64,000 nt of DNA, taken from NCBI RefSeq assembly GCF_004114375.1, contig NZ_CP034692.1:372001-436000 (forward strand). The letters run 5' to 3'. Every line of letters starts with the position of its first letter. Position 1 is the stretch's first letter. This DNA is from Halorubrum sp. BOL3-1. Lineage in GTDB: Archaea > Halobacteriota > Halobacteria > Halobacteriales > Haloferacaceae. Both the position numbers and the translations under genes were made by a program. Of this stretch, positions 4,958 through 42,086 are shown one piece after another. The notes beneath the pieces were generated by a model. The model was not told where the DNA came from. It made no database searches and worked only from the letters and a program-made list of their open reading frames with translations.

Positions 4958-7057
4958 ATGTACCACCCCGGACCCCCGCGCTTCCTCACGACCGGCGAAC
5001 GGACGGAGTTGGCGCCGAGAGACCCGAACCCGGACGCCGCGTACGCGTGGCGCGTCGCCGACGCGCCCCTGGACAGCGAGGCGACCGTCGGCAACGCGCC
5101 CGTGACCGAGTTCACCCCGGACGTCCCGGGGCGCTACCTGATCGGACTCGACGCCCCGGACGGCGACCACCTCCTCACGGTCCGGGCGTTCGCCGCGAGC
5201 TACGAGGGCGTCGATGTCGCCGGCGGGAGCGGCACCGAGATACGCGACCGCGACGCGGACGGCGCGCCGGTCGACTACGCCGCCCAGGAACGGCACGAGG
5301 GGGTGGGCAGACCGCGCGTTCGGGTGGACGCGAGCGTCGCGTTCGACGGCGGCGATTCGGCGGGAGAGCGCGCGGGCGAGGCGGTGTTCACCGCGGTCCC
5401 GACGCCGAACCCGGACTCCGCGCTCGACGCCGCGGACCTCTCGGTGACGTTCGTCGTCGACGACCGCGACGTCGGGAGCGCGGTCGCGGCGGGACGCACG
5501 AACCCCCGGGACGCGCTCGACGTGAGCGAGGACGGCCGCGAGCTCCGCGTGCCCCTTGACGCGGTGCCGGACCGCCTCCGGGTCCACGCCGTCGCGGTGG
5601 CGAGGGACCCGGGCGCGGACCCGCGTGTCGGCGTCGCCGACGCGGCCGCGGTCGAACGCGCCGACGAGGGGAAATCGGCGGTCGACGACGCGGGCGGAGA
5701 GGCGATTTTGACGCCGGAGACGCCCGAGTTCGAGACCCGGCGGCTCAACGATCCCCCCGAGTGGACCCGGGACGCCTCGGTCTACGAGGTGTTCGTCCGG
5801 ACCTTCGCGGACGCCGACGAGGGGGCGGCGTTCGACGCCATCGCGGAGCGGATCCCGCGGATCGCGGACCTCGGCGTCGACACGCTGTGGCTCACGCCGG
5901 TCCTCGGCCACGACGGGAAGCCGCACGGCTACAACATCGTCGACTTCTTCGACACCGCCGACGACCTCGGTGACCGCGAGGAGTTCGAGGCGCTCGTCGA
6001 GACCGCCCACGACCACGGGTTGCGCGTCCTCTTCGACTTCGTCGCCAACCACACCGCACGCGACCACGAGTGGTTCGAGGACGCCTATCGGAATCCCGAC
6101 TCGCCGTACCGCGACCGCTACGAGTGGCAGGCGTCGGGCGAGCCGGACACCTACTTCGACTGGGAACTGATCGCGAACCTGAACCACGCGAACCTCGACG
6201 TGCGGCGGTTCCTGCTGGACGTGATAGACGAGTGGGCGCCGCTCGTCGACGGGTTCCGGTGCGACATGGCGTGGGCGGTGCCGGACTCGTTCTGGCGCGA
6301 GCTGCGCGACCGGGTGAAGGACCTCGACCGGGAGTTCCTCCTGATGGACGAGACGATCCCGTACATCCCCGGGTTTCACGAGGGGATGTTCGACGTCCAC
6401 TTCGACGCGACGCTGTACTTCCAGCTCCGGCAGGTGGGCCGGGGGGCGGAGCCGGCGAGCACCGTCCTCGACGCGGTCGACCAGCGCGCGGAGATCGGGT
6501 TCCCCGACCACGCGGAGTTCCTCCAGTACATCGAGAACCACGACGAGACGCGCTACCGCGTCGAGTGCGGCGACGCCGCCGCGGCGGCCGCGGGCGCGGC
6601 GATCATGACCCTGCCGGGCGTCCCGATGGTGTACGCCGGCCAGGAGATCGGCCAGCGCGGCCGCCGGGACGCGATCGCGTGGGAGAACGCGCGCGAGGAG
6701 GTCCGCGACCGCTACGAGCGGCTGCTCGCGACCCGGCGGGACCACCCGGCGCTCGGCCCGGACGGCGACCTCTCCCGCGTCGACTACCACGTCGCCAGCG
6801 GCGACCTCTCCGAACGACCCGTCGTCGCCACCGGCGATGTCCACCCCGAAGACGTCGTCGCGTTCCGCCGGAACGGCGAGGACGAGAACCTCCTCGTCGT
6901 CCTCAACTTCGCGCCCGACGACGCCAGCGTCGCGGCCGACGTCGCCCACGGCGACCGCGACCTGGTCACCGGCGAGCGGCGCGTCGTCGAGGACGCCGAC
7001 GGGACCGAGCGGCTCCGCGTCGACGACGTGACCGTGGTGCCGGTCGCGGAGCGATGA
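4958..7057 (+). CDS. GH13 alpha-amylase family glycosidase
   Basis: A 699-residue enzyme expected to hydrolyse alpha-1,4-glucosidic bonds of maltodextrin or glycogen fragments. The N-terminal ~270 residues are a beta-rich, acidic region. The TIM barrel starts at about 270 with DASVYEVFVRTFADADEGA. GH13 signatures are all present: FDFVANHTARDH (region I), DGFRCDMAW with nucleophile D436, MDETIP with acid E465, and YIENHDETRY with H528/D529. The ATG at 4958 is the first in frame that gives this N-terminus; an earlier in-frame ATG would overlap the divergent GH15 promoter. The stop overlaps the next gene's start by ATGA, so the two are cotranscribed. The exact specificity (amylase, neopullulanase or cyclomaltodextrinase) cannot be fixed by eye. 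Confidence 0.9.
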   Translation: MYHPGPPRFLTTGERTELAPRDPNPDAAYAWRVADAPLDSEATVGNAPVTEFTPDVPGRYLIGLDAPDGDHLLTVRAFAASYEGVDVAGGSGTEIRDRDADGAPVDYAAQERHEGVGRPRVRVDASVAFDGGDSAGERAGEAVFTAVPTPNPDSALDAADLSVTFVVDDRDVGSAVAAGRTNPRDALDVSEDGRELRVPLDAVPDRLRVHAVAVARDPGADPRVGVADAAAVERADEGKSAVDDAGGEAILTPETPEFETRRLNDPPEWTRDASVYEVFVRTFADADEGAAFDAIAERIPRIADLGVDTLWLTPVLGHDGKPHGYNIVDFFDTADDLGDREEFEALVETAHDHGLRVLFDFVANHTARDHEWFEDAYRNPDSPYRDRYEWQASGEPDTYFDWELIANLNHANLDVRRFLLDVIDEWAPLVDGFRCDMAWAVPDSFWRELRDRVKDLDREFLLMDETIPYIPGFHEGMFDVHFDATLYFQLRQVGRGAEPASTVLDAVDQRAEIGFPDHAEFLQYIENHDETRYRVECGDAAAAAAGAAIMTLPGVPMVYAGQEIGQRGRRDAIAWENAREEVRDRYERLLATRRDHPALGPDGDLSRVDYHVASGDLSERPVVATGDVHPEDVVAFRRNGEDENLLVVLNFAPDDASVAADVAHGDRDLVTGERRVVEDADGTERLRVDDVTVVPVAER

Positions 7058-25524: not shown

Positions 25525-25593
25525 TGGACTCACTGGATTCGAACCAGGGCATCCTCCTTGCAAGGAGGCACTCTACCGCTGAGCTATGAGCCC
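25525..25593 (-). tRNA. Spacer tRNA-Ala (UGC), non-canonical arms
   Basis: Read leftward: GGGCTCATAGCTCAGCGGTA, then an anticodon arm CCTCC-TTGCAA-GGAGG, then CTGG-TTCGAAT-CCAG and TGAGTCC-A. Acceptor and D arms are normal for tRNA-Ala, and the 16S-23S spacer is the standard haloarchaeal place for tRNA-Ala(UGC). However, the total is 69 nt. The perfect five-pair anticodon stem encloses only six bases instead of seven, and the T stem has four G/C-type pairs instead of five. Either this tRNA is structurally deviant or three homopolymer bases (T, G, C) were lost in the assembly. The identity is firm, the functionality uncertain. Confidence 0.8.
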
Positions 25594-41977: not shown

Positions 41978-42086
41978 TGCTCGGTCAGGGATTTGAACCC
42001 TGGTCGTCGGCTGACTTCCGAACCGGCGCCGAGGCGCCGCGTCCGCCGAAAGGCCAACATGATTGGCCGGACTACACCAACCGAGC
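41978..42086 (-). tRNA. tRNA-Glu (UUC) with intron
   Basis: Read leftward: GCTCGGTTGGTGTAGTCCGG, anticodon 5' half TTGGC-CTTTCG, an insertion, then A-GCCGA, ACCAGGGTTCAAATCCCT and GACCGAGCA. With the insertion removed a canonical 75-nt tRNA-Glu remains (anticodon loop C-TTTC-G-A, stem TTGGC/GCCGA, T arm CAGGG/CCCTG). The 34-base insertion lies at 37/38, the standard archaeal intron site. No other tRNA-Glu is in the window. Confidence 0.93.
42013..42046 (-). other. Intron in tRNA-Glu(UUC)
   Basis: The insertion reads GCGGACGCGGCGCC through CGGTTCGGAAGTC. A bulge-helix-bulge can be drawn: CTTTC pairs with GGAAG, GGAC pairs with GTTC, with 3-base bulges GGC and TCA on opposite strands. Cuts in those bulges give the mature tRNA. 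The inner part GGCGCC-T-CGGCGCC is self-complementary. The fold is direct from sequence; cleavage by the splicing endonuclease is inferred. Confidence 0.85.

Follow-up and report, generated by a model that had tools for sequence, protein, structure and literature searches.

A conserved intron of ordinary archaeal type, with a patchy history, in the tRNA-Glu(UUC) gene of Halorubrum

Introduction

The closest described counterparts of the intron reported here are those of the Haloferax volcanii tRNA-Gln(UUG), tRNA-Met and tRNA-Trp genes, which occupy the same site, 37/38, adopt the same hBHBh' form and are EndA substrates (PMC2584109 and PMC7714728, from the parts of these papers available to us). 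They interrupt other tRNAs, and the list in the available part of these papers holds no Glu intron. The initial annotation of the DNA studied here, which named tRNA-Trp, tRNA-Met and tRNA-Gln as the well-known hosts of haloarchaeal introns, agrees with the published H. volcanii set in the accessible text of PMC2584109. Introns have also been described in some Halorientalis tRNA clusters, where the available part of PMC6333295 does not name the tRNA. Interrupted tRNA-Glu is known from Nanoarchaeum equitans, whose tRNA-Glu(UUC) and tRNA-Glu(CUC) are split and are rebuilt by an endonuclease and ligation (PMC4090602, available portion).

The available portions of PMC6000648, PMC6333295 and PMC7714728 report no haloarchaeal tRNA-Glu intron. 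More generally, within a partial literature coverage that left outside many subscription papers, supplements and GtRNAdb, we found no published haloarchaeal tRNA-Glu intron, and we do not claim that it is unrecorded. Here we describe such an intron in Halorubrum sp. BOL3-1, in a stretch of 64,000 nucleotides referred to below as the window.

Results

The gene and its spliced product

The interrupted gene is on the minus strand of the window at 41978-42086. The initial annotation had proposed a 34-nt intron in a tRNA-Glu(UUC) gene here, and its coordinates were exact; comparison with intronless 75-nt genes places the intron between G37 and A38, the 37/38 site that had been claimed. A genome search with RF00005 gives a match that spans the intron (G000:C3:413978-414086, minus strand, equal to window 41978-42086; 44.4 bits, E 4.6e-8). 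Because the gene is reported neither by cmscan of the window at gathering cut-offs nor by ARAGORN in bacterial mode, routine annotation could miss it. Its parts are as follows.

41978..42086, minus strand: tRNA-Glu(UUC) gene, intron included, 109 nt (75 nt spliced); RF00005 match of 44.4 bits and conservation in the genus
42047..42086, minus strand: 5' exon, 40 nt, last base G37; comparison with intronless 75-nt genes
42013..42046, minus strand: intron, 34 nt, between 37 and 38; comparison with intronless genes and bulge-helix-bulge (BHB) test
41978..42012, minus strand: 3' exon, 35 nt, first base A38; 100% identity over query positions 41-75 in the spliced-tRNA search and comparison with intronless genes

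With the intron removed, the tRNA is 75 nt long and identical at 75/75 positions to intronless tRNA-Glu(UUC) of other haloarchaeal genera; a full 75/75 match to the spliced tRNA was obtained at 23 of the 30 loci retrieved. A split or permuted tRNA gene is ruled out, since both exons are on one strand, in order and 34 nt apart.

The initial annotation had considered that a second, intronless tRNA-Glu(UUC) gene might carry the function, and none was found in the genome: all 52 places matched by RF00005 include no other UUC gene, the only other Glu gene among them being a CUC gene without an intron, and a search of the genome with the spliced tRNA gave no other strong match. Without splicing of this gene, therefore, there would be no recognisable UUC tRNA in the cell. 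For the splicing endonuclease EndA the genome has a single frame, 406 aa long, in which PF02778 matches two stretches and PF01974 also matches.

Other tRNA calls in this genome deserve mention in their own right. In the window, ARAGORN calls a tRNA-Ala at 6870-6956 that has no Rfam match, and an unnamed tRNA at 25525-25593, in a 16S-23S spacer, that an Rfam match supports. Elsewhere, an array of ten tRNA genes (L280, G000:C3:890500-896500; Gln, Asp, Pro, three Ser, two Leu, Tyr and Gly), a few of which score weakly as tRNAs (34.4 and 36.8 bits), is similar to the Halorubrum tRNA gene clusters described in the accessible part of PMC6333295.

A strict bulge-helix-bulge maintained by compensatory change

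The BHB test used 67 copies of the gene, 52 from the genus and 15 from seven other genera, of which 47 were distinct. The bulge-helix-bulge proposed initially is borne out in its strict hBHBh' form in 47/47 distinct copies, its parts being the anticodon stem, a bulge C-G^N, a 4-bp CUUU/GAAG helix, a bulge N-N^A and an outer hairpin. In every distinct copy the 4-bp central helix can form, the anticodon stem has its full five pairs, and the outer helix is at least 4 bp long, a length that it reaches in 3.1% of shuffled intron bodies. In the window the elements are:

42049..42052, minus strand: C32-U35, 5' strand of the 4-bp central BHB helix (partner 42018-42015); BHB test, invariant in the genus
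42015..42018, minus strand: GAAG near the intron 3' end, 3' strand of the central helix; 47/47 distinct copies and 69/69 matching genomes
42046..42048, minus strand: 5' bulge, C36 G37 ^ intron base 1, holding the 5' splice site; sequence and BHB test
42012..42014, minus strand: 3' bulge, U C ^ A38, holding the 3' splice site; sequence and BHB test
42019..42045, minus strand: outer helix and GC-rich hairpin of the intron body; 27 double-change cells, 0/500 shuffles as high

The initial annotation had both intron ends pairing with the anticodon. This is correct for the 3' end, whose GAAG (42018-42015) pairs with C32, U33, U34 and U35 of the anticodon loop and hence with two of the three anticodon bases, but not for the 5' end, which pairs within the intron, in the outer helix. 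The self-complementary GC core that it had noted is present as a GC-rich core.

Covariation supports the structure. Among the 32 distinct sequences of the genus, 27 cells are changed on both sides of a pair, against a shuffled mean of 7.7 with 0/500 shuffles as high; all of these double changes fall in the outer helix, and 98.3% of the outer-hairpin cells are paired. The anticodon stem and the central helix are invariant in the genus and so are silent on covariation. Thus the intron bodies vary while compensatory change keeps their pairing. The minimum-energy fold given by RNAfold for the precursor alone is not a textbook BHB: the acceptor and T stems pair, while the D-loop pairs with the anticodon stem and the D-arm lacks its cloverleaf fold.

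Universal in the sampled genus, patchy in the class

Comparison of tRNA-Glu genes across Halorubrum and its relatives, a check suggested by the initial annotation, finds the intron-bearing gene in 52/52 sampled genomes of the genus. The gene is identical at 109/109 positions in 9 other genomes and 88-99% identical in the other 42; one exon sequence is accompanied by 32 distinct introns, with lengths from 30 to 36 nt. The annotation had also allowed that this prevalence might already be catalogued for the genus. The prevalence itself is complete in the sample, and tRNAscan-type catalogues probably list a tRNA-Glu intron.

A scan of the class found an intron at this site in 69/391 genomes from 10 genera, a lower bound, as the pattern used exact exon motifs. 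These comprise 46/46 genomes of the genus plus 23 that belong to nine further genera (families f1, f2, f3 and f8), so that the intron is not confined to Halorubrum and the novelty implied by the initial annotation is weaker than claimed. All 69 matches have GAAG, whose first base was unconstrained in the pattern. When named genomes were scanned with a pattern that required GAAG, 68 stretches matched, 38 of them titled Halorubrum; the others include Halorientalis, Halarchaeum, Halolamina, Natronocalculus, Halalkalirubrum, Salinibaculum, Halorarius, Haloglomus, Halomicroarcula, Halospeciosus and several MAGs. In MAGs titled Thermoplasmatales bin45 (L149) and Methanocellales Yes46-07 (L186), which also match the pattern, the uninterrupted outer helix is only 2 bp long, and a record titled Halobellus captivus ZY8 (L187) has a Halorubrum-type intron, probably a naming difference.

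Repeated change at one site

We mapped intron presence on a tree made by a quick method from three ORFs of the rpo locus in 59 genomes; one ORF was identified by PF00623 and the others by position and likeness, and one genome of the 60 (G035) was left out as it had no rpo match. At least eight changes are needed, all forced by starred branches, in a parsimony count that does not distinguish gain from loss. One rpo ORF of the Halorubrum genome under study (o0 at L208, G000:C3:2264500-2276500) is open for 424 codons against 609 trimmed alignment columns, a possible frameshift.

Both states occur in the genus g7, where G131 and G221 are without the intron and G085, G115 and G262 have it. Homologous genes flank the tRNA on both sides in the four g7 pairs compared, and intron-bearing and intronless g7 genes align with identical exons and a clean gap at 37/38. 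Between G085 and G262 the introns differ at 2/33 bases, yet the tree groups G262 with the intronless G221, which suggests precise loss or transfer.

Beyond g7 the surroundings of the gene are less uniform. A gene that we take to be cystathionine gamma-synthase-like adjoins the tRNA in 41/52 loci of the genus, and one presumed to be PPIase-like in 21/52; neither was found in 80 further loci, which include some with the CUC gene. Linking loci by any shared neighbour chains 102 of them together. Twelve locus pairs were examined: the four from g7 have both sides in common, a pair in the genus has one side weakly in common, and the other seven, including G168 and G250 of g58, have nothing in common. 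One locus in the neighbour comparison (L067) had no UUC gene. A common locus for intron-bearing and intronless genes is therefore demonstrable only within g7.

Discussion

We conclude with high confidence that the only recognisable tRNA-Glu(UUC) gene of this Halorubrum is interrupted by a canonical archaeal BHB intron, which proteins would splice out, and that its exons would be joined to an ordinary tRNA. That the gene is instead a pseudogene or an assembly error could be argued from its being missed by both ARAGORN and the window cmscan, but it is the sole UUC gene found, is identical or homologous in 52/52 genomes and keeps a single exon sequence across the genus, which leaves that possibility a negligible probability. 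Because haloarchaeal tRNA-Trp introns are C/D guides (PMC2584109, available text), the Glu intron might likewise guide modification of its pre-tRNA; it has only 34 nt, in which no TGATGA or CTGA box was seen by eye, and no resemblance among intron bodies from different genera was apparent by eye, and we consider a guide role extremely unlikely. Origin by copying from tRNA-Gln(UUG), through recombination between similar genes, was also considered. The Gln anticodon loop is nearly the same (CUUUG, against CUUUC in Glu), the central helix has the same GAAG, and in G018 the Glu and Gln genes have much of GGCCAATCAT..GGCCTTT in common. The Gln sample was drawn from 80 genomes searched, with 22 matches, from which G084, G012 and G014 were dropped as intronless genes with a chance downstream match, leaving 19, and 18 of these 19 introns have GAAG. 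But Glu and Gln intron bodies from the same genome resemble each other no more than shuffled pairs do (12 genomes, p = 0.79), and in G012 and G014, both of the genus, the Glu intron is present and the Gln gene is intronless. Lacking this within-genome likeness, copying is not supported and seems to us very unlikely. The recurrence of GAAG in the Gln introns also weakens any argument for shared ancestry from its invariance among the Glu introns and, with copying unsupported, makes the motif look like a substrate constraint. Within the genus the tRNA-Gln(UUG) introns are themselves patchy, being present in G015, G018 (L312, C37:29487-29573) and G046 and absent from G012 and G014.

A further suggestion bears on why the intron is kept, namely that it breaks an integrase attachment site: the repeat of entering elements would cross 37/38, and the intron would ruin the match. 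Four intronless genomes have, besides the intact gene and at a distance of 1.8 to 10.8 kb from it, an extra copy of its 3' part. In three of them the intact gene is followed by a tyrosine integrase (PF00589), and the repeats, which match exactly over 68, 49 and 49 nt, extend across 37/38. The repeat in the fourth genome matches exactly over 35 nt, as far as A38, and continues beyond it after one mismatch. Extra 3'-end copies of the CUC gene, which is intronless in the present genome, occur in 4 of the 51 genus genomes with a match (52 searched). Integrases beside tRNA-Glu have been published for Hfx. volcanii, Hgm. borinquense and Nab. magadii (PMC3119063, available portion), a partial tRNA-Glu is described at a likely prophage (in the part of PMC3623002 available), and the general idea of intron-protected tRNA genes comes from Randau and Soll, as cited in the accessible text of PMC3293823. 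The counts, however, are not significant. An exact 3' 26-mer found at least one copy in 136/391 genomes, made up of 49 with the intron (46 of the genus and 3 of g71) and 87 not matching the intron pattern; a second exact 3' copy occurs in 0/49 of the former against 4/87 of the latter (Fisher p = 0.30), and the genomes are not independent. Moreover, close to a contig end, G005, of the genus, carries a short, imperfect copy of part of the UUC 3' region that falls wholly within the 3' exon, and in Thaumarchaeota intron-bearing tRNA genes do serve as integration sites (PMC8371274, as far as available). With suggestive anatomy and counts that are not significant, attachment-site protection is an open lead, which at present we think rather unlikely. 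A broader version, in which tRNA-Glu(UUC) is a recurrent battleground where introns recur at the very base at which integrases of local mobile elements need an unbroken tRNA sequence, give resistance to integration, and are lost cleanly when the pressure ends, with the tRNA unchanged, is speculative and, in our judgement, distinctly unlikely.

Two sets of loci are recorded here for their own interest. In three intronless relatives (L267, L268 and L269), 8-11 kb separate the intact tRNA-Glu(UUC) from a partial copy, each with a tyrosine integrase after the intact gene. At L314 (C12:377813 of G028, a genome of the genus) there is an extra tRNA-Glu(CUC) 3' copy that begins within the anticodon loop; the contig also carries the other copy, about 88 kb away.

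Splicing in archaea cuts after the second base of each bulge. For the protein-spliced intron that we favour, the transcript can fold into an hBHBh' in which the CUUU/GAAG helix, flanked by two 3-nt bulges, lies between the anticodon stem and the outer hairpin, and the single EndA would cut inside both bulges at that place. Ligation would then join the exons into an ordinary tRNA with the same sequence as in intronless relatives, and the intron would presumably be released and circularised. With no visible cargo, the intron probably has no further function, its body being free to change as long as it can fold, and introns at 37/38 appear to have been gained or lost repeatedly in haloarchaeal history with the exons unaltered. 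The circRNA data in the available part of PMC12558985, for volcanii, S. solfataricus and S. acidocaldarius, give no support for a Glu intron circle; our guess is that a circle of 34 nt may be too small for those libraries.

The Halorubrum tRNA-Glu intron is real and conserved. With it, the usual short haloarchaeal list of Trp, Met and Gln gains a glutamate tRNA, one for which the interrupted gene is the only one. All sampled genomes of this culturable genus have the intron, its occurrence elsewhere is patchy, and genera such as g7, with intron-bearing and intronless genes at one locus and identical exons, provide natural pairs both for following the turnover of archaeal tRNA introns and for asking whether introns protect tRNA genes from integration.

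In kind, the intron belongs to an ordinary, known archaeal type. The H. volcanii Gln intron, at 31 nt, is close to it in size (PMC2584109 and PMC7714728, in the parts available), and the Gln introns of relatives share its CUUU/GAAG helix (18/19). The split tRNA-Glu genes of N. equitans are separate half genes joined by trans-splicing (PMC4090602, as available), whereas Halorubrum has one gene with a cis intron. Crenarchaeal tRNA introns, such as the 71 in 46 genes of Pyrobaculum calidifontis, are likewise BHB-spliced, and 37/38, the site used in Halorubrum tRNA-Glu, is the commonest archaeal intron site; but crenarchaeal genes are interrupted at several sites, with up to three introns per gene (PMC8450103, accessible part), while the Halorubrum tRNA-Glu gene has one, at the canonical position.
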